A program made the translations under genes and the position numbers. The notes under the pieces were generated by a model. That model saw only the letters and a list, made by a program, of their open reading frames with translations. It had not been told where the DNA came from and ran no database searches. Of a stretch of 33,256 bases of DNA, positions 5,821 to 27,239 are shown in pieces; position 1 is the first letter of the stretch, and each line of letters begins with the position of its first letter. The DNA comes from Marinosulfonomonas sp. (GTDB lineage Bacteria; Pseudomonadota; Alphaproteobacteria; Rhodobacterales; Rhodobacteraceae): positions 1 to 33,256 of the forward strand of contig JAHRVC010000133.1 of assembly GCA_019090885.1 (NCBI GenBank). The letters run 5' to 3'.

Positions 5821-6831
5821 CTATTGCGGCGGAATCAGGCTTTCCGGCACATCAAACCCTGCCTCTTTGTAATAACGATATGCACCTTTGTGCAAAGGCG
5901 CGTTAACCGCAACAAAAGCCGTTTCACGGCTGATATCCTTCAGGAAATTTGCCGTAGCATGAACGTCATCCAGGTTTTCCCAGAACGCCTTGGTTGCTGC
6001 ATAAATCACGTCTTCGGACATGCCCACATGGGTGCCAACGAACTGAAAGAAACCCAACCCATTAACGTCACCTTCTGTCAGCTGACCCTCGTAGACACTA
6101 CCGGGAAAAGTTACCAATCCACGCCCCGGGCGCGCCAACAGGCCTTTCATTTCATCGTCTTGTAGTTTTTCATCTGTAATAGACAGCAGCCGGAATTCGC
6201 CCGACAGGCCGAATTGTTGTATCTGCGCAGATCCGACCTCACCCGGCTGCACCAATACGTCAACATTGTCATCCGCGAGCGCGGTAAGGCCTTCACCCCA
6301 CGACAGCTTAATTCCAGTGTAATCTTTATCGACTTCCAGGCCGCTCATAATTTTGATGATTGTGGCCGAAGTTACAGACGCAGATCCCGAAGGGGGCCCC
6401 AAATAGACTTTGCGCCCGGCAATGTCAGACCAGTTTTCCACCCCGGACCCGGCCTTGGTCAGGACGTGATACATACCAGCCTTAAATCCCACGATCGAGC
6501 GAAGGTTCGCCGCCATCTCGGGTGCATTTTCGACTTTAGTATACATCGCTTTGCCGCCCGCCATCAGGGCGACAAGGCCAGGAACACCAGAGTAGAAATC
6601 AAGATTACCCCGGCCGGAATTCAGCATTGCTTTGGTCATCGTCTGGCCAGCGTTGACCTGAATGTCGACACCGGCTTTGCGGGCCTGATTTGCAAACGCT
6701 ACGAACATGACGTGGGTTGAGCCACCCGCACCGGCTGTTTCGCCTTTGTAGATTTCGGCATTTGCAGATGTTGCAACGACCAGTGAACTTATCGCAGCCA
6801 GACCAATCGCCCGGATATTTGAAATATTCAT
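5821..6831 (-). CDS. TAXI-family TRAP transporter solute-binding protein
   Basis: A 336-residue periplasmic binding protein, first gene of the TRAP operon. The N-terminus is a signal peptide (hydrophobic core IRAIGLAAISSLVVATSA, probable cleavage after SANA at residue 25). The mature start IYKGETAGAGGSTHVMFVAFANQA and the later KVYLGPPSGSASVTSATI are typical of the TAXI (TRAP-associated extracytoplasmic immunogenic) family, which captures small carboxylates or amino acids such as glutamate in known cases. A strong GGGAGGAA ribosome binding site lies four bases before the ATG. The fused permease follows after 116 bases. The LysR gene just upstream on the same strand could influence it by read-through, but its own AT-rich upstream region suggests a separate promoter. 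Confidence 0.93.
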   Translation of the reverse strand: MNISNIRAIGLAAISSLVVATSANAEIYKGETAGAGGSTHVMFVAFANQARKAGVDIQVNAGQTMTKAMLNSGRGNLDFYSGVPGLVALMAGGKAMYTKVENAPEMAANLRSIVGFKAGMYHVLTKAGSGVENWSDIAGRKVYLGPPSGSASVTSATIIKIMSGLEVDKDYTGIKLSWGEGLTALADDNVDVLVQPGEVGSAQIQQFGLSGEFRLLSITDEKLQDDEMKGLLARPGRGLVTFPGSVYEGQLTEGDVNGLGFFQFVGTHVGMSEDVIYAATKAFWENLDDVHATANFLKDISRETAFVAVNAPLHKGAYRYYKEAGFDVPESLIPPQ

Positions 6832-7003
6832 TTATTCCTCCCAGAATTTTATCTGGGCAGACTACATGTAAAACCGGCCTCAACAATAATATTATCAATA
6901 TATATTTGGAAGGCCGTCCTGGTTTTTCAATCGTTTCCCCTTCTTTCTTGAATTTGTTCGTCTGGTGCTCAGTTTCGTCGGGGCTATTCTAAGAACGATA
7001 CAG
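6832..7003 (-). promoter_or_regulatory. Upstream region of the TAXI-TRAP operon
   Basis: This 172-base gap between the LysR stop and the binding-protein start contains no gene. It holds the ribosome binding site GGGAGGAA, a small inverted repeat (CCAGA at 6841-6845, TCTGG at 6852-6856) overlapping the leader, and a markedly AT-rich patch at about 6884-6906 including the perfect palindrome ATAATATTAT at 6886-6895, a reasonable position for a promoter. No clear -35/-10 pair could be fixed. Confidence 0.3.
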
Positions 7004-7912
7004 TCATCCCTTTTTAGTAAACGGATCGGATGGCGTATGCAGGCGCAGGTGGCGCATAAAAGCCCGCGCAACTCTTGGCAGGGGCCGTTGATCTGAAATT
7101 GCAAAATAGCTGCGGTATTCGATTTGCGATGCAAAAGGCAGAAACGTCAGCTCTTGCGAGCGATAATGGAAAACCGGGAACGGGTTCACGACTGCAAGCC
7201 CCAGCCCTTCTTTAGCCAGATCTACAGCAGCAAAAGACGTCGATACCTCGGCCACAATGCGGGGCGTGCTGCGGGCCTGTTTCAGGATTTTTTCCAACTG
7301 GGTTCGCCGGGCATGGCGGTAGGTGAATGCCACAAACGGTTGGCCGTTCAAATCATCGGGATAGATAACCTTTTTCTTCGCGAGCGGATGGTCCGAGATC
7401 ATCGCGCAAACCGCACTTGAAATCCGGTAGGGTTGCAGTTTGACGCCATCGCGATGCAACTCGACACCCGTCAGGCCCAGATCAAACCGATCATCCAGAA
7501 TGCCGCGGATCACTTCGTCAGACGTGTTCACCTCAAGGCTCACAAAGAAATGCGGGTTGGTGCGCAGGAAACTGGTGATGTGAGACACCAGAAACCGGTG
7601 CGCGAAACTTGGTGGGGCGATGATCCTTAACGTTTCCTGAACTGGCACGGTGGGGCCATCAATTCTGTCCAGCGCCTCAAACAGCGGGTCAAGACGACGG
7701 TTCAAGCGTACGGCTTCTTCTGTTGGACGTAAACGTCCAGCCTCGCGTTCAAACAATATCCGACCGCTGCGTGCTTCTAGGCTGGTAATCGAGCGGCTGA
7801 TCGCGGATTGAGACAAGCCCAGCCGGTCCGCCGCCGCTGTCGTCGTGCCAGTCTGCAAAAGTGCGCGAAGTGCCTGATATTCAGGCAGGCTGTGCCAAGA
7901 TTTGGGCGCCAT
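7004..7912 (-). CDS. LysR-family transcriptional regulator
   Basis: A 302-residue LysR-type regulator. Residues 9-67 form the winged helix-turn-helix (YQALRALLQTGTTTAAADRL, then LSQSAISRSITSLEARSG and LFERE), followed by a type-2 periplasmic-binding-like effector domain from about residue 90 (LRIIAPPSFAHRFLVSHITSF). GAGGAAAG lies just before the ATG. It is transcribed away from the dipeptidase-ABC operon, and the 114-base gap between them holds a perfect T-N11-A palindrome at 7944-7958, the classical arrangement for a LysR protein that controls the divergent operon and itself. The likely effector is a peptide or amino acid product of that operon (inference). Control of the downstream TRAP operon is possible but unsupported. 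Confidence 0.93.
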   Translation of the reverse strand: MAPKSWHSLPEYQALRALLQTGTTTAAADRLGLSQSAISRSITSLEARSGRILFEREAGRLRPTEEAVRLNRRLDPLFEALDRIDGPTVPVQETLRIIAPPSFAHRFLVSHITSFLRTNPHFFVSLEVNTSDEVIRGILDDRFDLGLTGVELHRDGVKLQPYRISSAVCAMISDHPLAKKKVIYPDDLNGQPFVAFTYRHARRTQLEKILKQARSTPRIVAEVSTSFAAVDLAKEGLGLAVVNPFPVFHYRSQELTFLPFASQIEYRSYFAISDQRPLPRVARAFMRHLRLHTPSDPFTKKG

Positions 7913-7943
7913 GAGCTTTCCTCTGCAAAATCTTCATACTAGC

Positions 7944-7958
7944 ATGAGTATAACTCAT
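7944..7958. promoter_or_regulatory. Candidate LysR operator (perfect T-N11-A palindrome)
   Basis: ATGAGT-ATA-ACTCAT: two perfect six-base arms around a three-base centre, containing the T-N11-A core typical of LysR-type recognition sites. It lies 32 bases from the LysR start and 68 bases from the dipeptidase start, and six bases upstream of a candidate -35 (TTGACT), where activating LysR proteins usually sit. Confidence 0.6.
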
Positions 7959-7964
7959 AATGTT

Positions 7965-7995
7965 TTGACTCGCCCATGAAAAATTCCCGTGTAAG
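7965..7995 (+). promoter_or_regulatory. Candidate promoter of the dipeptidase-dipeptide ABC operon
   Basis: A good -35 element TTGACT at 7965-7970 is followed after 18-19 bases by a poor -10 (GTGTAA or TGTAAG, 7989-7995). A strong -35, a weak -10 and an operator just upstream fit an activator-dependent promoter. The exact -10 is uncertain. Confidence 0.35.
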
Positions 7996-8026
7996 CTAAT
8001 GTCTTAACATTTGGTGGGGAACCCAA

Positions 8027-9088
8027 TTGGCAGACTATCAGACTCCAGTCATTTTCGACGGGCACAATGATGTTCTGTTGAAACTCTATAAGGCAGGCGG
8101 CATTTCCGCTGCCGAAAGCTTTGTTACCGGAACCAGTGGTGCGATAGACGCGCCGCGCGCCAAAGCAGGTGGGTTTGCTGGCGGCTTTTTTGCCGTTTAC
8201 GTACCCTCACCCGTCGGCCTGAAAAGCAAATTTGATGAGATGATCAAACCGGCCTACGATCTGGCCCTGCCCGAGCCGATTGAGTGGGAAGACGCGCTAC
8301 CGGTGGTGATGGCACAGGCAGCGATCCTGTTTGATCTGGAAAAACGTGGCGCACTGAAGGTTTGCCGCACCGTTGCCGAAATCCGTGAAACAATGGCCGC
8401 TGGCCTGATGGCCGCGATTTTTCATATTGAAGGGGCCGAGGCGATCGACCCGGACCTGCACACGCTTGAGGTTCTGTATCAGGCCGGGTTGCGTTCAATC
8501 GGTCCGGTCTGGAGCCGCGAAACCATTTTTGGCCATGGCGTTCCGTTTCGCTACCCCAGTGATCCAGACACCGGACCGGGGTTAAGCGATCATGGTCTGC
8601 GGCTGTTAAAGCGCTGCAATGAACTGGGCATCATGATTGACCTGTCGCATCTGAACAGTGCGGGTTTCTGGGATGTCGCGCGCCATTCAACGCAACCGCT
8701 GGTCGCCACCCATTCCAATGCACATACGATCTGCCCGCATGCCCGCAACCTGACCGACGATCAGCTTGCCGCAATTCGCGACAGCGACGGTATGGTCGGA
8801 CTGAATTTCGCCGTGGCCTTTCTGCGCGACGACGGGCGGATGCTGGCGGATGTTCCGCTAAGCCAGATGTTGCGCCATCTTGATTATCTGATTGATAAAC
8901 TGGGCGAAGACCGGGTTGGCCTTGGTTCAGACTATGACGGGGCGATCGTGCCAAAGGATGTAACAACCCTGGCCGACCTGCCCAACCTGAGACAGGCGAT
9001 GGCAAAGCACGGGTATGACGACGCATTAATGGCCAAGCTTTGCCACGAAAACTGGATGCGTGTTCTGGAAAAAACCTGGGGGGAATAG
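8027..9088 (+). CDS. Membrane dipeptidase (peptidase family M19, renal dipeptidase-like)
   Basis: A 353-residue zinc amidohydrolase of family M19, which cleaves dipeptides, often with a D-residue or dehydro residue at the C-terminal side. Metal-ligand motifs are in place: DGHNDVL (His-x-Asp, residues 10-16), FHIEGAEAI (bridging Glu), DLSHLN and ATHSNAH (His ligands), and LGSDYDG (Asp). I see no signal peptide, so it is probably cytoplasmic. The start is TTG at 8027, chosen because GGTGGGGA at 8013-8020 is well spaced before it and the reading begins right at the conserved domain. It is the first gene of an operon with a dipeptide-type ABC transporter, suggesting that imported dipeptides are its substrates. 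Confidence 0.92.
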   Translation: MADYQTPVIFDGHNDVLLKLYKAGGISAAESFVTGTSGAIDAPRAKAGGFAGGFFAVYVPSPVGLKSKFDEMIKPAYDLALPEPIEWEDALPVVMAQAAILFDLEKRGALKVCRTVAEIRETMAAGLMAAIFHIEGAEAIDPDLHTLEVLYQAGLRSIGPVWSRETIFGHGVPFRYPSDPDTGPGLSDHGLRLLKRCNELGIMIDLSHLNSAGFWDVARHSTQPLVATHSNAHTICPHARNLTDDQLAAIRDSDGMVGLNFAVAFLRDDGRMLADVPLSQMLRHLDYLIDKLGEDRVGLGSDYDGAIVPKDVTTLADLPNLRQAMAKHGYDDALMAKLCHENWMRVLEKTWGE

Positions 9089-9139
9089 CCCCAAGAATTC
9101 GCAATTTTATTCGTAACTAAAACAGGAGAGGTTCTAAAA

Positions 9140-10741
9140 ATGAATGTATTTAACAGACTTCTGACCAGCGCCGCATTTGGCGTTGCCGTCGGATTAACAT
9201 CTTTCGCCGCGGTGGCAGATACGCCGCCAAATATGTTGGTAATTGCCAACCGGATTGACGACGTCACGACACTTGACCCGGCGCAGTCCTTTGAATTTGC
9301 CGGTGGCGATGCCAGCCGCAATATTTACAGCCGTCTGGTGAATTTCGATCCAGCCGACCTGAGTGCCGGTTACAAACCTGATCTGGCCGAAAGCTGGGAC
9401 GTGTCCGAGGATGGCAAGACCATCACATTCCACATGCGCCCGGGTGTAAAATTTGCCTCTGGCAATCCGGTTACCGCAGCGGACGCCGAATTTAGCCTGC
9501 GCCGCGCCGTGACACTTAACAAAACACCGTCGTTCATCCTGACACAGTTCGGGTTTACGGCTGAAAATGTTGGTGACACGATCAAAGCCACCGACGATAT
9601 GACCCTGCAGATCACCACCGACAAGCGCTATGCGACGTCGTTTGTGCTGAATTGCATGACTGCCACCATTGGCGGCATCGTCGACATGAAAACCGTGATG
9701 GAGCATGAAGCCGACGGTGATCTGGGTAATGAATGGCTGCGCACGAACACAGCCGGTTCCGGCCCTTATGTTCTGGGTAGCTGGAAACCGAACGAAAGCC
9801 TGACGCTGACGGCAAATCCCGATTATTATGGCGGCGCACCTGCCATGGAACGGGTGGTTGTTCGCCACATTCAGGAAAGCGCAACACAGCGTTTGCTGCT
9901 TGAAAAAGGCGACATCGATATTGCCCGCAACCTGAACCCGGATGATGTTGCGGGTCTTGGCGGGGTGGACGATGTCAAAATCGCCAACGAACTTCGCGGG
10001 CGTCTGATGTATATCTCGCTCAACCAAAAGAACGAGGCATTGTCCAACCCCAAAGTCGTCGAGGCGATCAAATATCTAATCGACTATGACGGCATGGCAA
10101 ACAGCTTTCTCAAGGGTCAGTATACAGTGCATCAGGCCTTCTTGCCGCGCACCTATCTGGGCGAGATTGCCGACAAGCCATATTCATTGAACATCGAAAA
10201 AGCCAAGGCGCTGCTAGCCGAAGCTGGCTATGGCGACGGGTTTGAAATTGGCCTGTTTGTGCGTGAAGCGCAGGAACGCATCGAGATCGCCACTAGCCTG
10301 CAAAACACCTTTGCTCAGGCTGGCATCACGGCGACGATGACAGTGGGAACCGGCAAACAGATCCTTGGTGTTTACCGCTCGCGCGAGCATGACATCTATG
10401 TTGGCGCTTGGGGCCCGGATTATCCGGATCCAAACACCAATGCTGGTACATTTGCCTTTAATCCGGACAACTCGGATGAAGCAGGCGCAACTGGTCTTTT
10501 GGCATGGCGCAATGCTTGGCACATTCCTGAAATGTCCAACGCAACACTGGCAGCCGTCGAAGAAGGCGACCGCAACACACGGGGCAAAATGTATGAAGCC
10601 CTGCAGCGCGAACATCAGATGGTGTCACCATTCGCAGTTATGTTCCAAAAGAACGAGCAGAACGGCCTAGGGTCCGAAGTTGAAGGGTTCTCAATGGGTG
10701 GCGCGATTACTGGTGCAGGTTACTGGAAAGTTACCAAGTAA
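9140..10741 (+). CDS. Dipeptide/oligopeptide-type ABC transporter substrate-binding protein
   Basis: A 533-residue periplasmic binding protein of family 5 (DppA/OppA group). Signal peptide at residues 1-29 (hydrophobic core AAFGVAVGLTSFAAVA, cleavage after AVA). Typical family stretches: VTTLDPAQSFEFAGGDASRNIYSRLVNFD near the N-terminus, LAESWDVSEDGKTITFHMRPGVKFASGNPVTAADAEFSL and later GSGPYVLGSWKPNESLTLTANPDYYGG. A strong AGGAGAGG ribosome binding site lies upstream. It is followed immediately by the permease gene, with a terminator-like hairpin at the junction. Family members bind peptides but also nickel, haem or glutathione; the dipeptidase gene favours peptides here. Confidence 0.93.
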   Translation: MNVFNRLLTSAAFGVAVGLTSFAAVADTPPNMLVIANRIDDVTTLDPAQSFEFAGGDASRNIYSRLVNFDPADLSAGYKPDLAESWDVSEDGKTITFHMRPGVKFASGNPVTAADAEFSLRRAVTLNKTPSFILTQFGFTAENVGDTIKATDDMTLQITTDKRYATSFVLNCMTATIGGIVDMKTVMEHEADGDLGNEWLRTNTAGSGPYVLGSWKPNESLTLTANPDYYGGAPAMERVVVRHIQESATQRLLLEKGDIDIARNLNPDDVAGLGGVDDVKIANELRGRLMYISLNQKNEALSNPKVVEAIKYLIDYDGMANSFLKGQYTVHQAFLPRTYLGEIADKPYSLNIEKAKALLAEAGYGDGFEIGLFVREAQERIEIATSLQNTFAQAGITATMTVGTGKQILGVYRSREHDIYVGAWGPDYPDPNTNAGTFAFNPDNSDEAGATGLLAWRNAWHIPEMSNATLAAVEEGDRNTRGKMYEALQREHQMVSPFAVMFQKNEQNGLGSEVEGFSMGGAITGAGYWKVTK

Positions 10742-10762
10742 TGGCGATGGCCACACAAACAG

Positions 10763-10790
10763 AAAAAGGGCGGCAGATGTCGCCCTTTTT
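10763..10790 (+). terminator. Intrinsic-terminator-like attenuator hairpin at the binding-protein/permease junction
   Basis: Perfect ten-base arms AAAAAGGGCG (10763-10772) and CGCCCTTTTT (10781-10790) around an eight-base loop, ending in a run of six T at 10786-10791 on the transcribed strand. It starts 22 bases after the stop of the binding-protein gene and has the form of an intrinsic terminator. It would let the binding protein be expressed more than the membrane and ATPase subunits. The ATG at 10777, the likely permease start, lies in the loop and its AAGGG ribosome binding site lies in the left arm. Confidence 0.65.
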
Positions 10791-11799
10791 TCAACAGATC
10801 ATAGGGATTGCCAAGGTCCTGTTGTCGATTGCGGCAACGATGCTTGGCCTGTTATTTGTCACATTCTTTATTGGCCGGGTAATGCCGATTGACCCAGTTC
10901 TGTCGATTGTGGGCGAACGGGCCACCAAAGAAGTTTACGACGCGGCCTATATCAAGCTTGGCCTTGATAAACCGCTGATCGTGCAGTTTTTCAAATATGT
11001 TGTCGATGTGGTTCAGGGTGATTTCGGTCAGTCCCTGCGTACCGGATTTCCGGTTTCCGACGACATCAAACGCCTGTTCCCCGCCACGCTTGAACTGGCG
11101 ACGCTCGGCACGCTAATCGGCGTTTTTGTCGGGGTTCCACTGGGCGTAATTGCCGCCGTCAAACGCGGCTCTTGGATCGATCAGGTCGCCCGTGTCGTCG
11201 CCCTTATCGGCTATTCAATGCCGGTGTTCTGGCTGGGCATGATCGGATTGCTGGTGTTTTACGGGCAATTGGGATGGATCGGCGGGCCGGGGCGGCTTGA
11301 TATTTTCTACGAAGACATCATCCCGACTGTCACCGGCATGATCCTGATTGATAGTGCCCTTGCGCAGGACTGGGGAATATTTCGCAACGCGATTTCGCAC
11401 ATTATCCTACCTGCCTGTCTGCTGGGGTATTATTCGCTGGCCTACCTTAGCCGGATGACCCGCTCGTTCATGCTGGAACAGATGAGCGCGGAATATGTCA
11501 TCACCGCGCGGGTAAAGGGCCTGTCAGAATGGGCCGTGATCTGGAAGCACGCTTTTGGCAATATCCGGGTGCAGCTGATCACCGTCATCGCCCTTAGCTA
11601 TGCAGGCCTGCTGGAAGGATCGGTTCTGACCGAGATCATCTTTGCTTGGCCCGGCATTGGGTCCTACATCACAACCTCGCTGTTAAGCGCCGATATGAAC
11701 GCGGTGATGGGCGGGACGGTCGTCGTGGGGCTGGTATTTGTATTGCTGAACATATTCTCGGACCTGCTTTACAAGGTCTTTGATCCCCGTGCGAAATAG
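10777..11799 (+). CDS. Dipeptide-type ABC transporter permease (DppB-like)
   Basis: First inner-membrane subunit of the peptide importer, about 340 residues with six membrane segments. Family motifs: the N-terminal segment with IDPVLSIVGERATKE, the LGLDKPLIVQFFKYVVDVVQGDFGQSLRTG stretch typical of DppB, and the cytoplasmic EAA loop EYVITARVKGLSEWAVIWKH that docks on the ATPases. I chose the ATG at 10777 because AAGGG lies six bases upstream and the protein then starts 12 residues before the first membrane segment. An ATG at 10741, overlapping the previous stop as TAATG, would add 12 residues encoded through a terminator-like hairpin. The choice is open. Confidence 0.92.
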   Translation: MSPFFQQIIGIAKVLLSIAATMLGLLFVTFFIGRVMPIDPVLSIVGERATKEVYDAAYIKLGLDKPLIVQFFKYVVDVVQGDFGQSLRTGFPVSDDIKRLFPATLELATLGTLIGVFVGVPLGVIAAVKRGSWIDQVARVVALIGYSMPVFWLGMIGLLVFYGQLGWIGGPGRLDIFYEDIIPTVTGMILIDSALAQDWGIFRNAISHIILPACLLGYYSLAYLSRMTRSFMLEQMSAEYVITARVKGLSEWAVIWKHAFGNIRVQLITVIALSYAGLLEGSVLTEIIFAWPGIGSYITTSLLSADMNAVMGGTVVVGLVFVLLNIFSDLLYKVFDPRAK

Positions 11800-11808
11800 G
11801 CCTGACAG

Positions 11809-12723
11809 ATGAGCGAAACCCAATCCCTGCGCGCATGGCTGCTGACCGAAACGCCAACCTCGCGTCGTCATGCGAAACTGTCGGCGATTTATCATGCTTG
11901 GTTGTCGTTTCGCACCAATACCATGGCAATGATTGGCCTAATAATTTTGGTTCTGCTGGTTGTGGTCGCGGTTGTAGCGCCGTGGCTGGCACCGGCTGAT
12001 CCGTTTGCACAGACGTTGGCCAACCGGTTGCAACCGCCCGGCACCGACGGCCATATTCTGGGAACTGACAGCCTTGGGCGCGATCTGATGAGCCGGCTGA
12101 TCTATGGCTCTCGGATCACGCTGTATATCGTCGGGCTTGTCGCATTGATCGCACCGATCACCGGACTGCTGGTTGGGACAGTCGCAGGCTATGTCGGCGG
12201 CTTCACCGACATGGTCCTGATGCGGATCACCGATATTTTTCTGGCCTTTCCCCGGCTGGTTCTGGCGCTGGCCTTTGTGGCAGCACTGGGCGCGGGTATC
12301 GAAAATGCCGTTTTGGCCATTTCGCTGACGGCATGGCCGCCCTATGCACGGATGGCGCGCGCCGAAACGCTGACCATTCGCTCATCCGACTACATCAGTG
12401 CGATCCGCCTGCAAGGTGCCGGTCCGCTGCGCATCATTACCAAGCACATCTGGCCGCTCTGCATTTCCTCGCTGATCGTGCGGGTCACACTGGATATGGC
12501 CGGGATCATTCTGGCGGCGGCTGGCCTTGGATTTTTGGGCCTTGGCGCGCAACCACCTTCGCCCGAATGGGGCGCAATGATTTCCGAAGGGCGGCGGTTC
12601 ATACTGGATCACTGGTGGGTTGCCACCGTGCCGGGGCTGGCGATTTTCACGGTATCGCTGGCGTTCAACCTGCTGGGGGACGGGCTGCGCGATGTGCTGG
12701 ACCCGAAGGATAGCGAAAAATGA
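11809..12723 (+). CDS. Dipeptide-type ABC transporter permease (DppC-like)
   Basis: Second permease of the importer, 304 residues. A cytoplasmic N-terminus carries the OppC_N-type region (LSAIYHAWLSFRTNTMAMIGLIILVLLV), followed by LAPADPFAQTLANRLQPPGTDGHILGTDSLGRDLMSRLIYGSR, a hallmark of DppC, and about six membrane segments. The EAA loop is DYISAIRLQGAGPLRIITKH. It starts nine bases after the DppB-like stop, with only a weak ribosome binding site (TAGG), and its stop overlaps the start of the next gene by four bases (ATGA), so translation is probably coupled. Confidence 0.94.
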   Translation: MSETQSLRAWLLTETPTSRRHAKLSAIYHAWLSFRTNTMAMIGLIILVLLVVVAVVAPWLAPADPFAQTLANRLQPPGTDGHILGTDSLGRDLMSRLIYGSRITLYIVGLVALIAPITGLLVGTVAGYVGGFTDMVLMRITDIFLAFPRLVLALAFVAALGAGIENAVLAISLTAWPPYARMARAETLTIRSSDYISAIRLQGAGPLRIITKHIWPLCISSLIVRVTLDMAGIILAAAGLGFLGLGAQPPSPEWGAMISEGRRFILDHWWVATVPGLAIFTVSLAFNLLGDGLRDVLDPKDSEK

Positions 12724-13574
12724 CCCTGCTGGATGTTGAAAACCTTTGGGTGAAATTTCCGTCACGCCACGGCGTTTTTGATGCGGTGCGCGGCGTGTCT
12801 TTTACACTGGGGCAGGAACGTCTGGGCATCGTGGGCGAAAGTGGGTCTGGCAAGTCAATGACGGGGCGCGCAATCCTGCGCCTGATCCGCCCGCCGGGAA
12901 TTGTGACCGCCGATCAGATATCGCTGGAAGGCGAAGATCTGATGCAGAAATCCGAACGCGAGATGCGCGACGTGCGCGGCCAACGCATTTCGATGATCAT
13001 GCAGGATCCCAAGTTTTCGCTGAACCCGGTGATGACTATTGGCGACCAGATCATCGAAGCTTACCGGATGCACAATTCCGCAAGCAAATCCGAAGCCTAT
13101 AAAAAATCCCTAGATATGCTGAATGCGGTGTCCATCCGTGACCCCGAGCGCGTCATGCGCGCCTACCCGCATGAGATGTCGGGCGGCATGGGGCAGCGGA
13201 TCATGATTGCGATGATGCTGATCCCGAACCCGCAAATCCTGATTGCGGATGAGCCGACCTCGGCACTGGATGTCTCTGTGCAACGGCAGGTTCTTTCGAT
13301 CATGGACAAGCTGGTAACAGATCGTGGCATGGGGCTGATATTCATCAGCCACGACCTGAACCTTGTGGCGGATTTTTGTGACCGGGTTCTGATCATGTAT
13401 GCGGGCCGAATTGTCGAGGTTTGCGATGCCGACAAGCTGCATGATGCCCAGCACCCCTACACCCGCGGATTGCTGAATTCGCTGCCACGTCTGGACGCAC
13501 CCTGTGACCGGTTGGAGGTTTTGAAACGTGATCCCGAATGGTCCAAAACCCCAAGCGTGAGCGCGCGGATATGA
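12720..13574 (+). CDS. Dipeptide-type ABC transporter ATP-binding protein (DppD-like)
   Basis: ATPase of 284 residues. Walker A GESGSGKS, signature MSGGMGQR (a variant of LSGGQ with Met for the final Gln), Walker B ILIADEPTSALD and the switch histidine in FISHDLNLVADF are visible. DppD proteins usually reach about 320-330 residues with a C-terminal cysteine-containing extension; here the protein stops soon after the HPYTRGLLNSLP motif, so the extension is mostly missing. It overlaps the gene before by four bases and the gene after by four bases from the chosen start of that gene. It pairs with the next ATPase to drive uptake. Confidence 0.93.
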   Translation: MTLLDVENLWVKFPSRHGVFDAVRGVSFTLGQERLGIVGESGSGKSMTGRAILRLIRPPGIVTADQISLEGEDLMQKSEREMRDVRGQRISMIMQDPKFSLNPVMTIGDQIIEAYRMHNSASKSEAYKKSLDMLNAVSIRDPERVMRAYPHEMSGGMGQRIMIAMMLIPNPQILIADEPTSALDVSVQRQVLSIMDKLVTDRGMGLIFISHDLNLVADFCDRVLIMYAGRIVEVCDADKLHDAQHPYTRGLLNSLPRLDAPCDRLEVLKRDPEWSKTPSVSARI

Positions 13575-14311
13575 CAATGTTGGATATCCAAAACCTAAAC
13601 GTCTGGTTCGGCCATGGTCGCGACCGGGTGGACGCTGTCAAAGGCGCGACATTTTCGGTGGATCGCGGTGACAGTTTTGGTCTGGTTGGTGAAAGCGGGT
13701 CGGGGAAATCTACGATCTTGCGCGCGGTCACCGGGCTTGCGCCAGACTGGAGCGGTTCGATAAAACTGGATGGCACGGAACTGGCCGGACAACGGGAAAA
13801 GGCGTTCTACAAGACCGTGCAAATGGTGTTTCAAGACCCCTACTCATCACTTCATCCGCGCCATTCCGTCGATCAGGTATTAGGTGAAACACTGTATCTG
13901 CATGGGTTCAAGGACATTGATACACGGGTAGTCAAACTGCTGGACGATGTTGGTCTTGGCGGCAAATTCCGGTTCCGTTATCCGCATCAACTGTCGGGCG
14001 GTCAACGCCAGCGCGTTGCAATCGCGCGCGCACTTGCGCCCGAACCAGAGGTATTATTGTTGGATGAACCGACCTCGGCGCTGGACGTATCAGTTCAGGC
14101 AGAAATTCTGAATTTGCTGGTCGACTTGCGAACTGAAAATAAGCTGACATTCCTGATGGTGTCCCATGATCTGTCAGTTGTCGGCCATATGTGCGAACGG
14201 CTGGCCGTGATGAAAGACGGTGAAATCGTTGAGATTATGGAAGTCGAGGCACTGCGCAAGATGCAGGCAACCCATCCTTATTCTCAGGAACTTTTGGCCG
14301 CCTCGGTTTAA
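13571..14311 (+). CDS. Dipeptide-type ABC transporter ATP-binding protein (DppF-like)
   Basis: Last gene of the importer operon, 246 residues from the ATG at 13571. This start overlaps the preceding TGA as ATGA, matching the other junctions, and begins MTMLDIQNLNVWFG right at the nucleotide-binding domain; an upstream start at 13538 would add 11 residues. Walker A GESGSGKST, signature LSGGQRQRVAIARAL, Walker B LLLDEPTSALD and switch histidine VSHDLSVVGHM are all canonical. It ends at HPYSQELLAAS, shorter than the usual DppF of about 320 residues, with no C-terminal extension. The stop is ten bases from the convergent gph-like stop and no clear terminator is visible between them. Confidence 0.92.
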   Translation: MTMLDIQNLNVWFGHGRDRVDAVKGATFSVDRGDSFGLVGESGSGKSTILRAVTGLAPDWSGSIKLDGTELAGQREKAFYKTVQMVFQDPYSSLHPRHSVDQVLGETLYLHGFKDIDTRVVKLLDDVGLGGKFRFRYPHQLSGGQRQRVAIARALAPEPEVLLLDEPTSALDVSVQAEILNLLVDLRTENKLTFLMVSHDLSVVGHMCERLAVMKDGEIVEIMEVEALRKMQATHPYSQELLAASV

Positions 14312-14320
14312 GCGTCGCGA

Positions 14321-14983
14321 CTAACAAGTGATTTCGGCAGTTCTGGCTTGATCCACTAGCGTTTCAAAGCCCTCAAAATGAAACACACACTCAAAATCCT
14401 CAACCGGGGTTTTTCGATATCCTTGCGTGAACAGCGCGAAAGGCACCGCTGCGGCCAAGGCGGTATTTGCATCAACTTCACTGTCGCCCACATAAAGACG
14501 CGGCCCATCGCCAAGCTGCTCAAAGGCCGCCAAAAGAGGTTTCGGATCAGGTTTGCGAACCGGGAACGTGTCGCCACCGATGACAACCTCAAAGAACCCG
14601 TCCAATTGAAACGCCGACAAAATAGTTTGCGTCGGTACCGCTGGTTTGTTTGTGCAAATCCCCAACCGAACGCCCCTGTCGCGCAACACGGACAGGGCGT
14701 CCAAAACCCCGGGATAGAGCATGGTCAGATCAGATGAATGCGCATCGTAGTCGGTCACGAACCGGGCCGTAAGTGCCGAAAGGGACACAGCCGATTGATC
14801 CAACCCGGTCGCCTTGGCCAGTTTGGCCACCAAAACAGGCACGCCGTTACCAATAAAGGATTTCACCTGTGCAAGGCTTAGCCCGCTATGCCCCTCGGCC
14901 TGCAACAGCCGGTTCGCCGCTGCATGTAAATCGGGCGCGGAATCGATCAGCGTTCCGTCAAGATCAAAGACAATTGAAGACAT
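14321..14983 (-). CDS. gph: HAD-family phosphatase, probable phosphoglycolate phosphatase
   Basis: A 220-residue haloacid dehalogenase-type phosphatase from the chosen ATG at 14983, which starts MSSIVFDLDGTLIDSAPDLH with GGAAA upstream; a GTG at 15013 would add ten unconserved residues. Catalytic motif I is DLDGT (D7, D9), motif II ICTNKPA, motif III lysine in VRKPDPKPL, motif IV VGDSEVDANTA; the helical cap lies between motifs I and II. These, especially DSAPDLH, fit the Gph group, which removes phosphate from 2-phosphoglycolate arising from DNA repair or photorespiration-like reactions. Other small phosphate esters are possible. The MFS gene lies upstream on the same strand, 86 bases away from this start. 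Confidence 0.85.
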   Translation of the reverse strand: MSSIVFDLDGTLIDSAPDLHAAANRLLQAEGHSGLSLAQVKSFIGNGVPVLVAKLAKATGLDQSAVSLSALTARFVTDYDAHSSDLTMLYPGVLDALSVLRDRGVRLGICTNKPAVPTQTILSAFQLDGFFEVVIGGDTFPVRKPDPKPLLAAFEQLGDGPRLYVGDSEVDANTALAAAVPFALFTQGYRKTPVEDFECVFHFEGFETLVDQARTAEITC

Positions 14984-15069
14984 GTAAGATTTCCAAATTT
15001 TGACAAGGATCACCCATAGGCACTTTACCGCCCCTGTTCCAGCCCTGACCGGGCATCGCTATATCGTCA

Positions 15070-16299
15070 CTAAATTGGTTCTTTGTCTACTGACGGCCGC
15101 ATGATGTAGATTGCCAGCGCTACCGTTGCCCCAAGCCCCACGACGCCGAAACCAACGCCCGTGACCGCCAGACTGGTCGCTTCGGCAGTGATGCCAAACA
15201 GGAACGCCCCAAGCGCCGGACCAACCCGATAAACCGCCGTATAAAGGCTAAGCACCCGACCGAGGCGTTCCTGTGGCGTGCGAATTTGAACGAAAGTCAT
15301 TGCCGCAATGTTCGATGACGCCATTGAAGCCCCGTGAACAACCAGAAAAAACAGGGCCAGCCCAAAGTTCTGCGTCAGAGAAAACGCAATCAGTGAAAGG
15401 GCAAAAAACGCCGAAGTCACGAAAATCTGGCGCAAGGCGGCCATTGTTGCGCGCGCCTTGGACAAGGCCAACGCGCCGATAATAGCACCCCCGCCAAGGG
15501 CGGCATTCAGCGCACCCAAGCCGACTTCGCCCATGTCGAATGCCAGTTCAGAAAAGGCCGGGAAAAGTTCATTCGCGGGTCGCAACAAAAGTCCCTGCGC
15601 AAATTGCAAAAGGATAATGCCAAAAATAATCGGTGTGGCCATCACGTCGCGAAACACCTTTAGCGTGCCAGCCTTTGGCATTGGTGCACGGGCCGGAGAT
15701 TGCCGTGGCACGTCCCGGATCACATGCAGCACACGGGCAAAGACCAGAAAGCAGATCGCTGTGATAGCAAACACAATGGTTGCGGAGGATACCAACAACA
15801 GACCCGCAGAAATCGCCGGGCCAATCAGCCGCGACAGATTGAACCCTGTCGAGTTCACCGCCAGTGCAGAGGGGAGCAAATGCGGCGGCGCCAAAAAAGA
15901 GGCCATTGATAGTCGTGCCGGCAACAGGAACCCGTTAATCGCACCAAAGAACACCATCGCCCCGACGATCGCCCCCGGCGTCAACGCGCCGGAATAGTGC
16001 AGAACCGCGAGTAGTATCGACACAAATGCGTTGGCGATCTGACCCCAGTACATCACCCGCGTCGTCGAAATTCGATCCGCAAGCCTTCCGCCCAAAATGC
16101 CGGTGAAAATCGAAGGGAAAAGTTCGGCAAATGCAATGGCACCCAGCCATGCTTCGGACCCAGTCAGCGTCCAGACAACCCAGCCGATGGCGATCCGCTG
16201 CATCCACAGGCCAATCGTCATGGTAATATGACCGGCCTGATAAATCGCGAAAGGGCGGATGGCGAACACCGCAGACAAATCTTGAAAACGTGAACGCAT
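15070..16299 (-). CDS. MFS transporter (EntS-like, MFS_3 type)
   Basis: A 409-residue protein with about 12 hydrophobic segments, belonging to the major facilitator superfamily group that includes enterobactin exporters and related efflux proteins. The N-terminus FAIRPFAIYQAGHITMTIGLWMQRIAIGWVVWTLTGS and the loop GGRLADRISTTRVMYWG (the MFS motif A region between segments 2 and 3) are characteristic, as is the TPQERLGRVLSLYTAVYRVGPALGAFLFG motif in the second half. Direction is probably export; the substrate is unknown. No convincing ribosome binding site is seen before the ATG. Upstream DNA holds several inverted repeats that could be operators. Confidence 0.88.
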   Translation of the reverse strand: MRSRFQDLSAVFAIRPFAIYQAGHITMTIGLWMQRIAIGWVVWTLTGSEAWLGAIAFAELFPSIFTGILGGRLADRISTTRVMYWGQIANAFVSILLAVLHYSGALTPGAIVGAMVFFGAINGFLLPARLSMASFLAPPHLLPSALAVNSTGFNLSRLIGPAISAGLLLVSSATIVFAITAICFLVFARVLHVIRDVPRQSPARAPMPKAGTLKVFRDVMATPIIFGIILLQFAQGLLLRPANELFPAFSELAFDMGEVGLGALNAALGGGAIIGALALSKARATMAALRQIFVTSAFFALSLIAFSLTQNFGLALFFLVVHGASMASSNIAAMTFVQIRTPQERLGRVLSLYTAVYRVGPALGAFLFGITAEATSLAVTGVGFGVVGLGATVALAIYIMRPSVDKEPI

Positions 16300-16621
16300 C
16301 AGTGGTTATTCATTTCGGTTCCAACGCAGTGGGAAACATTTTTCTAGCTGCGGGCGAAAAGTGTCCGCAATCGCCGGACAGTAATAAAATGACGGGCGAT
16401 TGCACATAGCTTACCCAAAATAAACTCAGCTTTTTGCAGCCTGATTTAGTTTTGAGATTCGGAACTGCAAATCAAGACCCGAAAAATTCTCGGCTAAGGC
16501 AGCGACAACTTTGCAAGCGGCACCTTGCAAAAAATCTCCTATATTGCGACAATACCATCAACACCTGAGCGCAATTTTATGCGGTTGAACGGTGACGGTC
16601 ACCCGAAGGATCAAATAAGTA
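16300..16621. promoter_or_regulatory. Non-coding region between the divergent MFS and unknown membrane-protein genes
   Basis: About 320 bases with no credible gene. It contains three notable inverted repeats: TGTCCG (16362-16367) with CGGACA (16375-16380); GCAATCGCC (16367-16375) with GGCGATTGC (16395-16403); and TTTGCAAG (16510-16517) with CTTGCAAA (16524-16531). The right arm of the last overlaps a possible plus-strand promoter (TTGCAA at 16526-16531, then GACAAT at 16548-16553, a 16-base spacer). The region presumably carries the promoters of both flanking genes; a short leader RNA is possible but unproven. Confidence 0.4.
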
Positions 16622-18088
16622 GTGCAGGCGCCCGACCCCAGCCCAAATTCCGCGCAAGTCGCGTTGAGCGCACCCCAACAGCAAACCAGGCCCAAAGGAA
16701 ATGTTGTGGTCGGCGTGCTTTTGTTAACACTGATGACCTTTCAAGGTTTAAGCGGCTGGTTCGGGCTTGAATGGGTTCAACTGCCAAGTGTCGGCATTCT
16801 TCTAACGATCGTCATCTACACGCTAATCAAGGGAAACAAGACGGCGCGGGTCTTTATCTTGATTGCCGCATTTTGCGGTATTCTGGCAGTTTTTCTACTT
16901 GATGCACCTCTGCCAACAATCTGGGACGGGATAAAGCGCGCCTTGTTTTTTCAGGCATTTCTGACGGCGCTGTTCACGTTGCAAGAAGCCGCGCTGCGTT
17001 CAAAAATGCTGCACAACATTGGGCACTTTCTGATCAATCAACCGGTTCGCCGACGCTCGTTCCTATTGGTCATCGGAACCAATGTGATGGCGTTGATGAT
17101 GAATATCGGTGCGCTTGTAATGATTGGGTCAATTGCCAAAGCAAGCGAAGCGACCGGGCAAACAAATATAAAATCCGACTCGCTTGAAAAAAGGCAACTG
17201 CCACTGGCAGCGTTACGGGGGTTTCCACCGTCATCAGTTTGGTCCCCGCTTGCGCTTCCGCCGGTATTTCTAGCGACATTCTACCCCGACGTAGAGCTTT
17301 CGACAGTTATGCTTTACGGCGCAGGGATGTCGGTGCTGCTTTTGTTACTTAGCTTTTTAGTAATCTCCATCGAAGTCTGGATGGCGACCAGATCAGGGAA
17401 AGTTATAGAACCCGATTATGCTGCCCGAACCCGGTTTCCGACCGAAAGCGTGTCGATGCTCGCAGGAACGCTGGTTATGATCTTTGGGTCCATCGTGTTC
17501 TTTTCTAACTTGCTGGATATCAGCGTGGCTATTTCGGTGATCTTGATCATTCCGGCCACGTCGATCATTTGGCTTTTGCTGATGTGCCGGTTCAACTTGA
17601 AAAAGTTTGTGCAAGATCCGGCGCGCAACATGATCTGTTTTCGGTTGCCACAGCAGGTATCTGAAACCAGCGTCATCGTATCGGCGGCCTTCATGGGGCC
17701 AATCCTGTTGGAAATTCTGCCTGTGGAAATATTGGCAAATTACATCATTGCCAATTCCATTGCGCCGGCGTTTTTTGCAGCCGTTGTATTCTTTGGAATG
17801 ATCGGGATGGCGATGGTGGGCGTCAATTCTGTGCTGTCCACAACGATCGCGCTTGCCGTTGCGGGCAACCCGCTGGCATTTGGATTAGAGCCTATTGCCT
17901 TGATCCTTGTGATCCTCACCGCCTGGGCACTGGCCTCGCAGTTAACACCTTTTTCGACCACAGCCATTATGGTTTCCAGAATATTCGATGTCGCCCCGGC
18001 CAAACTGGTCTTTCAATGGAACGGATTGTTGTGGACGCTGACGATGCTGATCGCGGCGGTTGTTTTTATTGTTTGGGGAATGTGGTGA
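16622..18088 (+). CDS. Polytopic membrane protein, possible ion-transporter-superfamily permease
   Basis: A 488-residue membrane protein I do not recognise by name. A hydrophilic N-terminus of about 26 residues is followed by roughly a dozen hydrophobic segments. The general plan, with two similar halves and conserved loops such as NVMALMMNIGALVMIGSIAKA, LRGFPPSSVWSPLALPP in the first half and GVNSVLSTTIALAVAGNP and SQLTPFSTTAIMVSRIFD in the second, recalls transporters of the ion-transporter (DASS/ArsB/CitM) superfamily, so a carboxylate or anion carrier is a reasonable guess. The start is GTG at 16622, the first start after an in-frame stop; AAGGA lies 11 bases before it, slightly far. The gene stands alone between divergent and convergent neighbours. 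Confidence 0.75.
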   Translation: MQAPDPSPNSAQVALSAPQQQTRPKGNVVVGVLLLTLMTFQGLSGWFGLEWVQLPSVGILLTIVIYTLIKGNKTARVFILIAAFCGILAVFLLDAPLPTIWDGIKRALFFQAFLTALFTLQEAALRSKMLHNIGHFLINQPVRRRSFLLVIGTNVMALMMNIGALVMIGSIAKASEATGQTNIKSDSLEKRQLPLAALRGFPPSSVWSPLALPPVFLATFYPDVELSTVMLYGAGMSVLLLLLSFLVISIEVWMATRSGKVIEPDYAARTRFPTESVSMLAGTLVMIFGSIVFFSNLLDISVAISVILIIPATSIIWLLLMCRFNLKKFVQDPARNMICFRLPQQVSETSVIVSAAFMGPILLEILPVEILANYIIANSIAPAFFAAVVFFGMIGMAMVGVNSVLSTTIALAVAGNPLAFGLEPIALILVILTAWALASQLTPFSTTAIMVSRIFDVAPAKLVFQWNGLLWTLTMLIAAVVFIVWGMW

Positions 18089-25383: not shown

Positions 25384-25458
25384 TTCATTCCCCGAATTCC
25401 GGCTTGTTCCGTTTAGCATGTCGTTCGCCGTTCGGACCTGTTGTCTTGTGGTGGCCGA

Positions 25459-25478
25459 TCGGGGCCCAAAGGCCCCGA
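25459..25478 (-). terminator. Hairpin between glpV and glpS
   Basis: A perfect hairpin with eight-base arms TCGGGGCC (25459-25466) and GGCCCCGA (25471-25478) and a four-base loop, 24 bases beyond the glpV stop. It is very GC-rich but on the transcribed strand has no T-run after it. It is likely a 3' stabilising or partially terminating stem that raises the level of binding protein relative to the membrane complex. Confidence 0.6.
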
Positions 25479-25502
25479 CTGTTTTCTTTGATCAAATAAG
25501 GA

Positions 25503-27239
25503 TCAGTTCTTAGCCCAACGAGCAACAAGATCGTCATAATTGACAGTGACGCCCTGTGGCTTTTCGTTAGAGAGTTTTGCTTTCGCGCCGCCCTTACCCA
25601 GCCATTCCGAAGGATCTTTTTCTTCGTTCAGACGCGGACCACAACCACCGTAAACATTCGCAGCTTCGTCTGCGACTTGCATCCGGGCCATCGTGATGTC
25701 CATTTCACTTGCCAAACGGTCCATCGCCTCTTGCGGGGTAAACGCACCAGAGTTCACGTCACCGATTTGCTGCCACCAGATTTGGGCCAGCTTTGGATAA
25801 TCGGGCACGTTAATACCTGTAGGTGACCACGCAACACGGTCAGGAGAGCGATAAAACTCCACCAATCCACCAAGATTTGGGGCACGATCAGTGAATGACG
25901 CATGGCGAACAGTGCTGTCGCGAGTGAAGGTTAGACCCACGTGGCTTTTGCGCACGTCCACCGTCTTGGAAGTGACAAACTGTGCATAAAGCCAAGCCGC
26001 TTTGGCGCGATCAATCGGTGTCGACTTCAGGATCGTCCAGGAACCAACGTCCTGATAGCCAACCTTTTGGCCTTCTTCCCAGTATGGGCCATGAGGCGAC
26101 GGTGCCATGCGCCACAAAGGAGTGCCCGCATCATCAACTGTGTTGTTACCGTCGGATTTTGGCTTGACCATATCAGCGGTAAAAGCAGTGTACCAAAAGA
26201 TCTGCTGGGCAACGTTGCCTTGGCTGAGTGCTGGAAGTGACTGATAGAAGTCATAGCTGGCAGCACCAGGAGGTGCATAGGCACGCAGCCATTCGTCCCA
26301 TTTGCGGATCGCATAGACGGCCGCAGGTCCGTTGGCAGCACCACCGCGGCTGACGCTTGCGCCGACCGGGTTACAACTGCCCGCTTCCATACGGATGCCC
26401 CATTCGTCGATTGGAACGCCGTTTGGTTCACCCTTGGAACCAGCACCTGCCATCGACAGCCACGCATCGGTCATCCGCCAGCCCAGATCGGGTGCGCGCT
26501 TGCCATAATCCATGTGGCCGTAAATTGCGGTTCCGTCGATTTCCTTCACATCTTTGGAAAAGAACTCGGCGATATCCTCATAGGCGGACCAGTTAACCGG
26601 AACACCCAACTCATAGCCGTATTTAGCTTTAAACTGTTCTTTCAGGTCTGCACGGTCGAACCAGTCTTTGCGGAACCAGTAAAGGTTAGCAAACTGCTGG
26701 TCGGGCAACTGATAAAGGTCGCCATCCGGGCCGGTTGTGAACTGAATGCCCATGAAATCACCCAGGTCCAGCGTCGGGCTGGTCACGTCAGCAGCTTCGC
26801 CTGCCATAAAGTCGGTCAGGTTATAGGCTAGTTGCAGGCGCGAGTGGGTGCCGATCAAATCGGAATCGTTAACATAGGCGTCATAAAGGTTTCGCTGCGT
26901 CTGCATTTGCGTTTGCACAGCCTGAACCACTTCACCCTCACCAAGGATTTGGTGATTGACCTTAATACCGGTGATTTCCTGAAATGCCTTGGTCAGAACG
27001 TCAGATTCATAGCTATGCGTCGGAATACCTTCCGACAACACGTTAATCTCCATTCCGGCATATGGCTTTGCGGCGCTGATGAACCATTCCATCTCTGCAA
27101 TCTGCTCATCTTTGCTGAGCGTGGATGGCTGAAACTCCTGATCAATCCATTTATTTGCGGCGTCCATGTCAGCGATCGCCATTGGTGCTGACGCAACGAC
27201 GGCGAATGCCGCGGTTGCGGACAAAAGATACTTGCGCAT
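25503..27239 (-). CDS. glpV: Glycerol ABC transporter substrate-binding protein
   Basis: A 578-residue periplasmic binding protein, unusually large for the sugar-binding (family 1) group but normal for GlpV. Signal peptide MRKYLLSATAAFAVVASAPMAIA, cleavage probably after AIA at residue 23. The mature part has typical binding-protein stretches (EINVLSEGIPTHSYESDVLTKAFQEITGIKV, LPDQQFANLYWFRKDWFD) and a C-terminal CGPRLNEEKDPSEWLG region. A very good GGGAGGAG ribosome binding site lies five bases before the ATG. It is first in the operon, divergent from glpR. Binding of glycerol is inferred from neighbours glpSTPQ, glpK and glpD. Confidence 0.94.
   Translation of the reverse strand: MRKYLLSATAAFAVVASAPMAIADMDAANKWIDQEFQPSTLSKDEQIAEMEWFISAAKPYAGMEINVLSEGIPTHSYESDVLTKAFQEITGIKVNHQILGEGEVVQAVQTQMQTQRNLYDAYVNDSDLIGTHSRLQLAYNLTDFMAGEAADVTSPTLDLGDFMGIQFTTGPDGDLYQLPDQQFANLYWFRKDWFDRADLKEQFKAKYGYELGVPVNWSAYEDIAEFFSKDVKEIDGTAIYGHMDYGKRAPDLGWRMTDAWLSMAGAGSKGEPNGVPIDEWGIRMEAGSCNPVGASVSRGGAANGPAAVYAIRKWDEWLRAYAPPGAASYDFYQSLPALSQGNVAQQIFWYTAFTADMVKPKSDGNNTVDDAGTPLWRMAPSPHGPYWEEGQKVGYQDVGSWTILKSTPIDRAKAAWLYAQFVTSKTVDVRKSHVGLTFTRDSTVRHASFTDRAPNLGGLVEFYRSPDRVAWSPTGINVPDYPKLAQIWWQQIGDVNSGAFTPQEAMDRLASEMDITMARMQVADEAANVYGGCGPRLNEEKDPSEWLGKGGAKAKLSNEKPQGVTVNYDDLVARWAKN

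Follow-up and report, generated by a model that had tools for sequence, protein, structure and literature searches.

Binding-protein-dependent importers need far more of the binding protein than of the membrane part. To our knowledge, the way in which one operon delivers this ratio is known in few species.

Differential operon decay in Escherichia coli involves protective 3′ hairpins with Term-seq and decay data behind them (PMC5927463); 17 of the 26 lie inside the downstream open reading frame, on average 107 nt into it, and lack a U tract. The same paper also mentions malE-malF and Rhodobacter capsulatus puf, in which the binding-protein mRNA (malE) or another upstream segment is stabilised by an intergenic hairpin between cistrons. 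In cellulolytic Clostridia, stem-loops located 3′ of the substrate-binding protein (SBP) gene set the SBP-to-translocator ratio; the source (PMC9045158) describes them as intergenic, of low U content, with long GC stems, and shown to terminate transcription. In Vibrio cholerae, OppZ spares oppA and lowers oppBCDF through control at oppB of the oppABCDF operon, acting as an sRNA together with Rho (PMC7398697).

The hairpin described here lies directly 3′ of an SBP gene and within the first codons of the adjoining permease gene. It resembles the E. coli decay hairpins (PMC5927463) in being stable, positioned 3′ of an upstream gene, often inside the downstream coding sequence, and conserved in relatives. 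It is unlike them in that its left arm begins a median of 17 nt past the SBP stop with the permease start abutting that stop, its arms are compensatorily rewritten across the family, the window carries a T run, and the evidence is computational. It shares with malE-malF and puf an upstream segment that would be stabilised, although it would itself be translated as part of the permease; likewise, it resembles the Clostridial stem-loops in position and in the predicted effect on the transporter ratio, but is overlapped by the permease frame, and its capacity to terminate is putative. The outcome we propose, a spared binding protein and lowered membrane components, matches that of OppZ, whereas the proposed mechanism differs. 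This is a known kind of control, here at a new and well conserved site, and a probable effect of the hairpin is a surplus of binding protein over pump. A literature search of limited coverage found no paper on this SBP–permease junction, which does not prove absence; the excerpts of reports on a Ruegeria pomeroyi sRNA (PMC4809877) and Rhodobacter PNPase (PMC7866481) hold nothing on the hairpin site.

Gene context and anatomy of the hairpin

The window (the whole 33,256-base stretch of DNA that was analysed) is one contig of a 2.96-Mb draft genome; judged by the permease, the named records most similar to it belong to Rhodobacteraceae/Rhodobacterales. The operon, on the forward strand, consists of an M19 membrane dipeptidase gene (8027–9088; Pfam PF01244, E 5e-90), the SBP gene (SBP_bac_5, 9140–10741; PF00496, E 4e-88), permease B (BPD_transp_1, 10741–11799; PF00528, E 3e-39), permease C (11809–12723; OppC_N and BPD_transp_1) and, at its end, two overlapping ABC ATPase genes (12720–13574 and 13538–14311; ABC_tran). 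The dipeptidase neighbour suggests a dipeptide-related substrate, a provisional assignment since the SBP gene reached no NCBIfam equivalog cut-off. Further along the forward strand is a 488-residue open frame with a GTG start (16622–18088), which has no Pfam match and ends just before convergent permease genes.

The SBP stop codon (TAA, 10739–10741) overlaps an ATG at 10741 in the sequence TAATG (10739–10743), which is the most likely permease start; a second in-frame ATG at 10747–10749, also 5′ of the hairpin, is an alternative that has a comparable start in some close relatives. Perfect 10-bp arms, AAAAAGGGCG (10763–10772) and CGCCCTTTTT (10781–10790), begin 21 bases after this overlap and enclose a loop at 10773–10780 when only the perfect stem is considered. 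In the RNAfold minimum-energy structure (−19.5 kcal/mol) the stem extends to 13 pairs, with a left arm at 10762–10774, which covariation also supports, an AGAU tetraloop at 10775–10778 and a right arm at 10779–10791. The last six bases of the right arm are a T run (10786–10791), which is paired in the full fold: the left arm's A run takes up five of the T, and the last one pairs with a G. If translation starts at 10741, permease codons 8–17 are written in the hairpin.

The hairpin is real: its z score is −5.9, the 39-nt stretch folds better than every one of 200 shuffled versions, and it is the sole perfect inverted repeat of at least 10 bp with a loop of 3–8 bases in the 33,256-base window, comparable repeats numbering one in total across 20 dinucleotide shuffles of the window. 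The ten-base perfect arms and six T that an earlier note on this DNA had placed 3′ of the SBP stop are confirmed. The AAGGG (10766–10770, left arm) and the in-frame ATG at the loop (10777–10779), which the note took for ribosome binding site and start codon, are also present, with the G of that ATG sitting in the closing pair of the minimum-energy fold. A consensus terminator scan of positions 6000–18000, part of a wider terminator and promoter scan whose hits stayed at the level of shuffles, is no evidence by itself (15 matches against a shuffle mean of 14.8), and it placed the hairpin site on the minus strand. Rfam gave no match at the gathering threshold in the window.

Conservation among related junctions

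Permease searches returned matches in 54 of 394 family genomes (E < 1e-150) and in at least 160 of 390 order genomes (E < 1e-120); the order-level set comprised 14 new loci and 80 further places among the matches listed. A total of 177 loci yielded 138 in which a same-strand SBP gene precedes the permease and permease identity exceeds 50%, leaving out 22 with an opposite-strand SBP gene (used as a control), 4 without an SBP match and 13 with permease identity below 50%. Those with a possible permease start between −4 and +12 nt relative to the SBP stop, the window included, are hereafter denoted class A (97 loci); those with a longer SBP-to-permease distance are denoted class B (41 loci at 40 distinct places, since L004 and L082 are the same). 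A named set of 41 loci comes partly from the same genomes as the other set, as with L208 and L031. In the one genus relative, a 73% complete genome, no orthologue reaches the search threshold.

By scanning minimum, a hairpin below −18 kcal/mol is present at the junction in 93 of the 97 class A loci (mean −22.6), as opposed to 4% of 1,990 stretches taken from these loci as background (average −11.8). In the energy profile (36-nt stretches, 96 of the 97 loci) position +20 relative to the SBP stop has a mean of −21.5 kcal/mol, with 98% of loci below −14; the sampled positions from −400 to +56, excluding +14 to +26, have means between −4.6 and −12.4. The median left-arm start is +17 nt. Within the named set, 36 of 41 loci lie below −18 and all 41 below −15. 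Unusual stability directly 3′ of the SBP gene and conservation of structure, also within coding sequence, are the properties expected of a boundary hairpin, and both were found.

The pairing is conserved by compensation. Across an alignment of 83 of the 97 class A junctions, a non-redundant set with identity below 85% over 78 bases, 92.1% of cells pair (77.2% when shuffled) and 131 cells are compensatory, with both sides changed (44.6 when shuffled). The covariation score is 0.538, compared with 0.260 for shuffles and at most 0.236 when slid; the pairing collapses once the partner is slid by a single base. Compensatory change occurs in 9 of the 10 pairs, a value equalled by 54 of 500 shuffles, and the case for covariation consequently rests on the other measures. 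Whole arms have been rewritten, for instance GGGGAGGG/CCCTCCCC in L003, AAGAGGCAGCC/GGCTGCCTCTT in L087, and GAAGGACGGC/GCCGTCCTTC in L075.

The loop start codon is not conserved. Only 4 of the 97 class A loci (L001, L003, L075, L125) and one of the 41 named loci (L229) combine an in-frame loop ATG with a purine-rich left-arm site, and 17 of 97 have any ATG, GTG or TTG within the hairpin; a conserved start codon in the loop is rejected on these counts. The first permease start exactly abuts the SBP stop in 72 of 97 loci and overlaps it, as in the window, in 7. For 49 of the 97, no ATG, GTG or TTG other than the one near the SBP stop lies between that stop and residue 27, where the membrane domain of the permease begins. 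Given the rarity of the loop ATG and the 49 loci with a junction start alone, the permease of the window most likely starts at 10741 or 10747, and ATG 10777, the start proposed in the earlier note, is not upheld. That reading was a natural one, as NCBI annotates the permease start in the loop in Sagittula sp. P11; the annotated start is at the SBP stop in Thalassococcus sp. S3 and 133 nt after it in Salipiger sp. CCB-MM3. These RefSeq starts of the orthologous permease lie 0, 32 and 133 nt after the SBP stop (L348, L349 and L350), possibly owing to a junction start without an ordinary ribosome binding site; caution is warranted, as automatic start-site calls can disagree at such junctions.

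Association with the SBP stop codon

The hairpin goes with the SBP stop, and three contrasts tie it to the SBP message. The first is provided by loci with the same permease but with the SBP match (nearby, not necessarily cognate) on the opposite strand (L144, L147, L158 and 19 others). Here, the mean energy of −12.6 kcal/mol is at background level, with 4 of 22 loci below −18 and 18 of 22 lacking the hairpin. A structure belonging to the permease start is rejected on this control.

Class B supplies a second, imperfect contrast. A hairpin of −18 kcal/mol or lower begins within 30 nt of the SBP stop in 32 of 41 loci, and the best hairpin ends 5′ of the first possible permease start in 24 of 41. 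At the coding site itself the mean is −15.8, with 16 of 41 below −18, against −22.4 and 91 of 97 for the same measure in class A. The contrast is blurred because the coding-site energy is still low, class B is GC-richer (65% against 60% in class A), and a possible start precedes the hairpin in 16 of 41 loci. The clearest class B case, L094, keeps the peptide RRRAPLAPWF, yet folds to −15.3 in its codons and to −25.8 in the spacer.

The third contrast comes from other operons of three genomes, the window's own and two complete relatives, with 30 permease matches considered in each (out of 44, 54 and 82). Hairpins of −18 kcal/mol or lower are found near the stop in 25 of 31 SBP-to-permease junctions, whereas 10 of 52 junctions after other genes reach this value (Fisher p 4e-8); the median energies are −23.3 and −12.5. 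The six SBP-to-permease junctions without such a hairpin are L204, L297, L298, L318, L325 and L338. Excluded were the loci of the operon described here (L178, L291, L319), loci with no upstream open reading frame (L289, L192, L194), and L203, which has a hairpin and an SBP-like gene without a Pfam match. The 31 SBP genes are Pfam-confirmed; among the 52 others seven are ATPases and one has no Pfam match, the remainder being classed by composition and motifs, with L309 and L346 probably spurious frames. In the window's own genome, for which 30 of the 44 permease loci were considered, such a hairpin closely follows the SBP stop, in most cases with few T, at 8 of the 9 other SBP-to-permease junctions confirmed by Pfam (L179, L180, L183, L190, L191, L193, L198, L205); the exception is L204, an SBP_bac_11 gene.

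Two paralogous junctions, L293 and L324, have hairpins at +26 to +54 and +32 to +60 and possible permease starts at +6 and +12, respectively; in these the hairpin may lie inside the permease frame. The window also holds a second SBP gene (SBP_bac_1, 25503–27239, reverse strand), whose stop likewise has a hairpin behind it, at a distance of 23 bases (25458–25479), with 9 pairs and no T run; the next gene is an ATPase, not a permease.

Proposed role and alternatives

We consider it probable, though by no means certain, that the hairpin is a 3′ boundary element of the SBP mRNA that is overlapped by the first permease codons. In this model, ribosomes would finish the SBP, the upstream cistron, at the stop codon (10739–10741) and some would restart on the overlapping permease start; those continuing past the junction would melt the hairpin and make permease. 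On transcripts that are not translated into permease the hairpin would form just beyond the footprint of the terminating ribosome. The median left arm position of +17 nt presumably clears a ribosome ending at the SBP stop. An endonuclease would then cleave the poorly translated downstream part, and the hairpin, marking the end of the SBP mRNA, would block 3′-to-5′ exonucleases, such that a stable SBP-only mRNA accumulates and the SBP is made in excess over the permease and ATPases.

The computational observations that this model draws on are the hairpin itself, its compensatory conservation, the association with SBP stops, a permease start conserved 5′ of it and the mostly short T run. We infer the cleavage, exonuclease blocking, translation restart and resulting SBP:permease ratio; the decay steps are modelled on the E. 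coli, malE and puf cases (PMC5927463). The suggestion in the earlier note of a hairpin directly 3′ of the SBP gene that would set the SBP-to-permease ratio is supported, the effect on the ratio being probable, and its idea that translation from 10741 may open the stem fits the anatomy.

Two alternatives locate the significance of the stem in the permease protein or in its start codon. The hairpin could be a by-product of a conserved Gly-Arg/Ala-Pro-Leu N-terminal peptide, whose GC-rich codons pair by chance. Some residues do recur (48 of 55 have R at position 11, and 30 of 55 have P at position 15), and synonymous versions outfold the background (null means average −14.5 against −11.8). When the permease start of each class A locus was recoded 100 times with codons from pooled usage, however, the native sequence folded far better (mean z −2.76 over 97 loci), beating all 100 versions in 40 loci and all but at most five in 80; in 10 of the 97 loci the native rank is poorer than 10 of 100, with L009 the extreme at 57. 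Moreover, residues 8–18 show only 14–44% pairwise identity, except position 11 (76%), while 92% of cells pair, and L094 retains the peptide without a strong fold in its codons. Peptide-driven pairing is rejected on the synonymous-codon null, and the by-product explanation as a whole appears exceedingly improbable. It is also very unlikely that the stem is a translational gate, in which the permease is made from ATG 10777 and its ribosome binding site, locked in the left arm, is opened by translation from 10741. The AAGGG does lie 6 nt before that ATG, three other class A loci (L003, L075 and L125) have the same layout, and the loop start is the one annotated in Sagittula sp. P11. Nevertheless, the layout is confined to 4 of 97 loci, 49 of 97 offer only the start near the SBP stop ahead of residue 27, and the hairpin follows SBP stops in other operons too.

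The remaining alternatives concern what the stem does to ribosomes or polymerases. That it mainly slows or lowers restart of permease translation at 10741, with the SBP mRNA end secondary, is in our view improbable: at a median of +17 nt the stem does start close to where a ribosome positioned at the junction start would end, and early-frame structures can lower translation, a dual role having been raised for E. coli (PMC5927463), but the hairpins of L191 (+7 to +36, first start +97) and L326 (+2 to +39, first start +117) lie far 5′ of the permease start, and the hairpin is missing in the 18 of 22 permeases with an opposite-strand SBP gene noted above. An internal intrinsic terminator, or attenuator, at which some polymerases stop at 10786–10791 so that fewer transcripts reach the permease, is rather unlikely; on this account the hairpins of relatives would be weak terminators with short U tracts. 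The earlier note's terminator reading holds for the window, which has an A5, the GC-rich stem core and T6 expected of an intrinsic terminator, and a Carafa-type score of 31 (a score treated as lenient for GC-rich stems). It holds less well for relatives. The six T of the window are the longest run among the 97 class A loci, where the longest run is at most three in 85 and at least five in 6; runs of at least five are found in 8 of the 41 named loci, with six T in L224 and L237. The hairpin is kept in 93 of 97; the group-wide conserved feature is the hairpin, not the tail. With the same lenient score, 69 of the 97 class A loci and 37 of the 41 in the named set exceed 0, which keeps the attenuator alive, and the Clostridial internal terminators with low U content and long GC stems (PMC9045158) also count in its favour; against it, the E. 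coli boundary hairpins lack a U tract and show no significant Rho-dependent termination (PMC5927463). In the window genome the six T probably also cause partial, intrinsic termination close to position 10791, and, given that this is the longest T run, termination may matter more there than decay.

Returning to the boundary element, its location inside the permease gene means that restarting ribosomes would have to melt the stem, a possible link between permease translation and what becomes of the message. A stronger form of this idea, which we regard as doubtful, is that the overlap itself constitutes a one-shot switch for each mRNA: either restart melts the hairpin, or the ribosome leaves and a stable SBP-only message results. 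If true, restart would commit that mRNA to the whole transporter, the efficiency of one stop–start junction would set both permease translation and SBP mRNA life, and the retention of the hairpin inside the permease frame, rather than in a spacer, in many relatives would be explained.

In a widespread group of marine and environmental bacteria, the junction gives a clear example of an RNA element that covaries, together with a protein stretch whose codons are shaped by RNA pairing. It also suggests a rule, that a hairpin follows SBP genes, which is testable in Rhodobacterales.

In Kiloniella and Pseudovibrio, which we take to lie outside Rhodobacterales, hairpins of different sequence are found after possible permease starts near the SBP stop (L238, L239, L240, L242 and L244).
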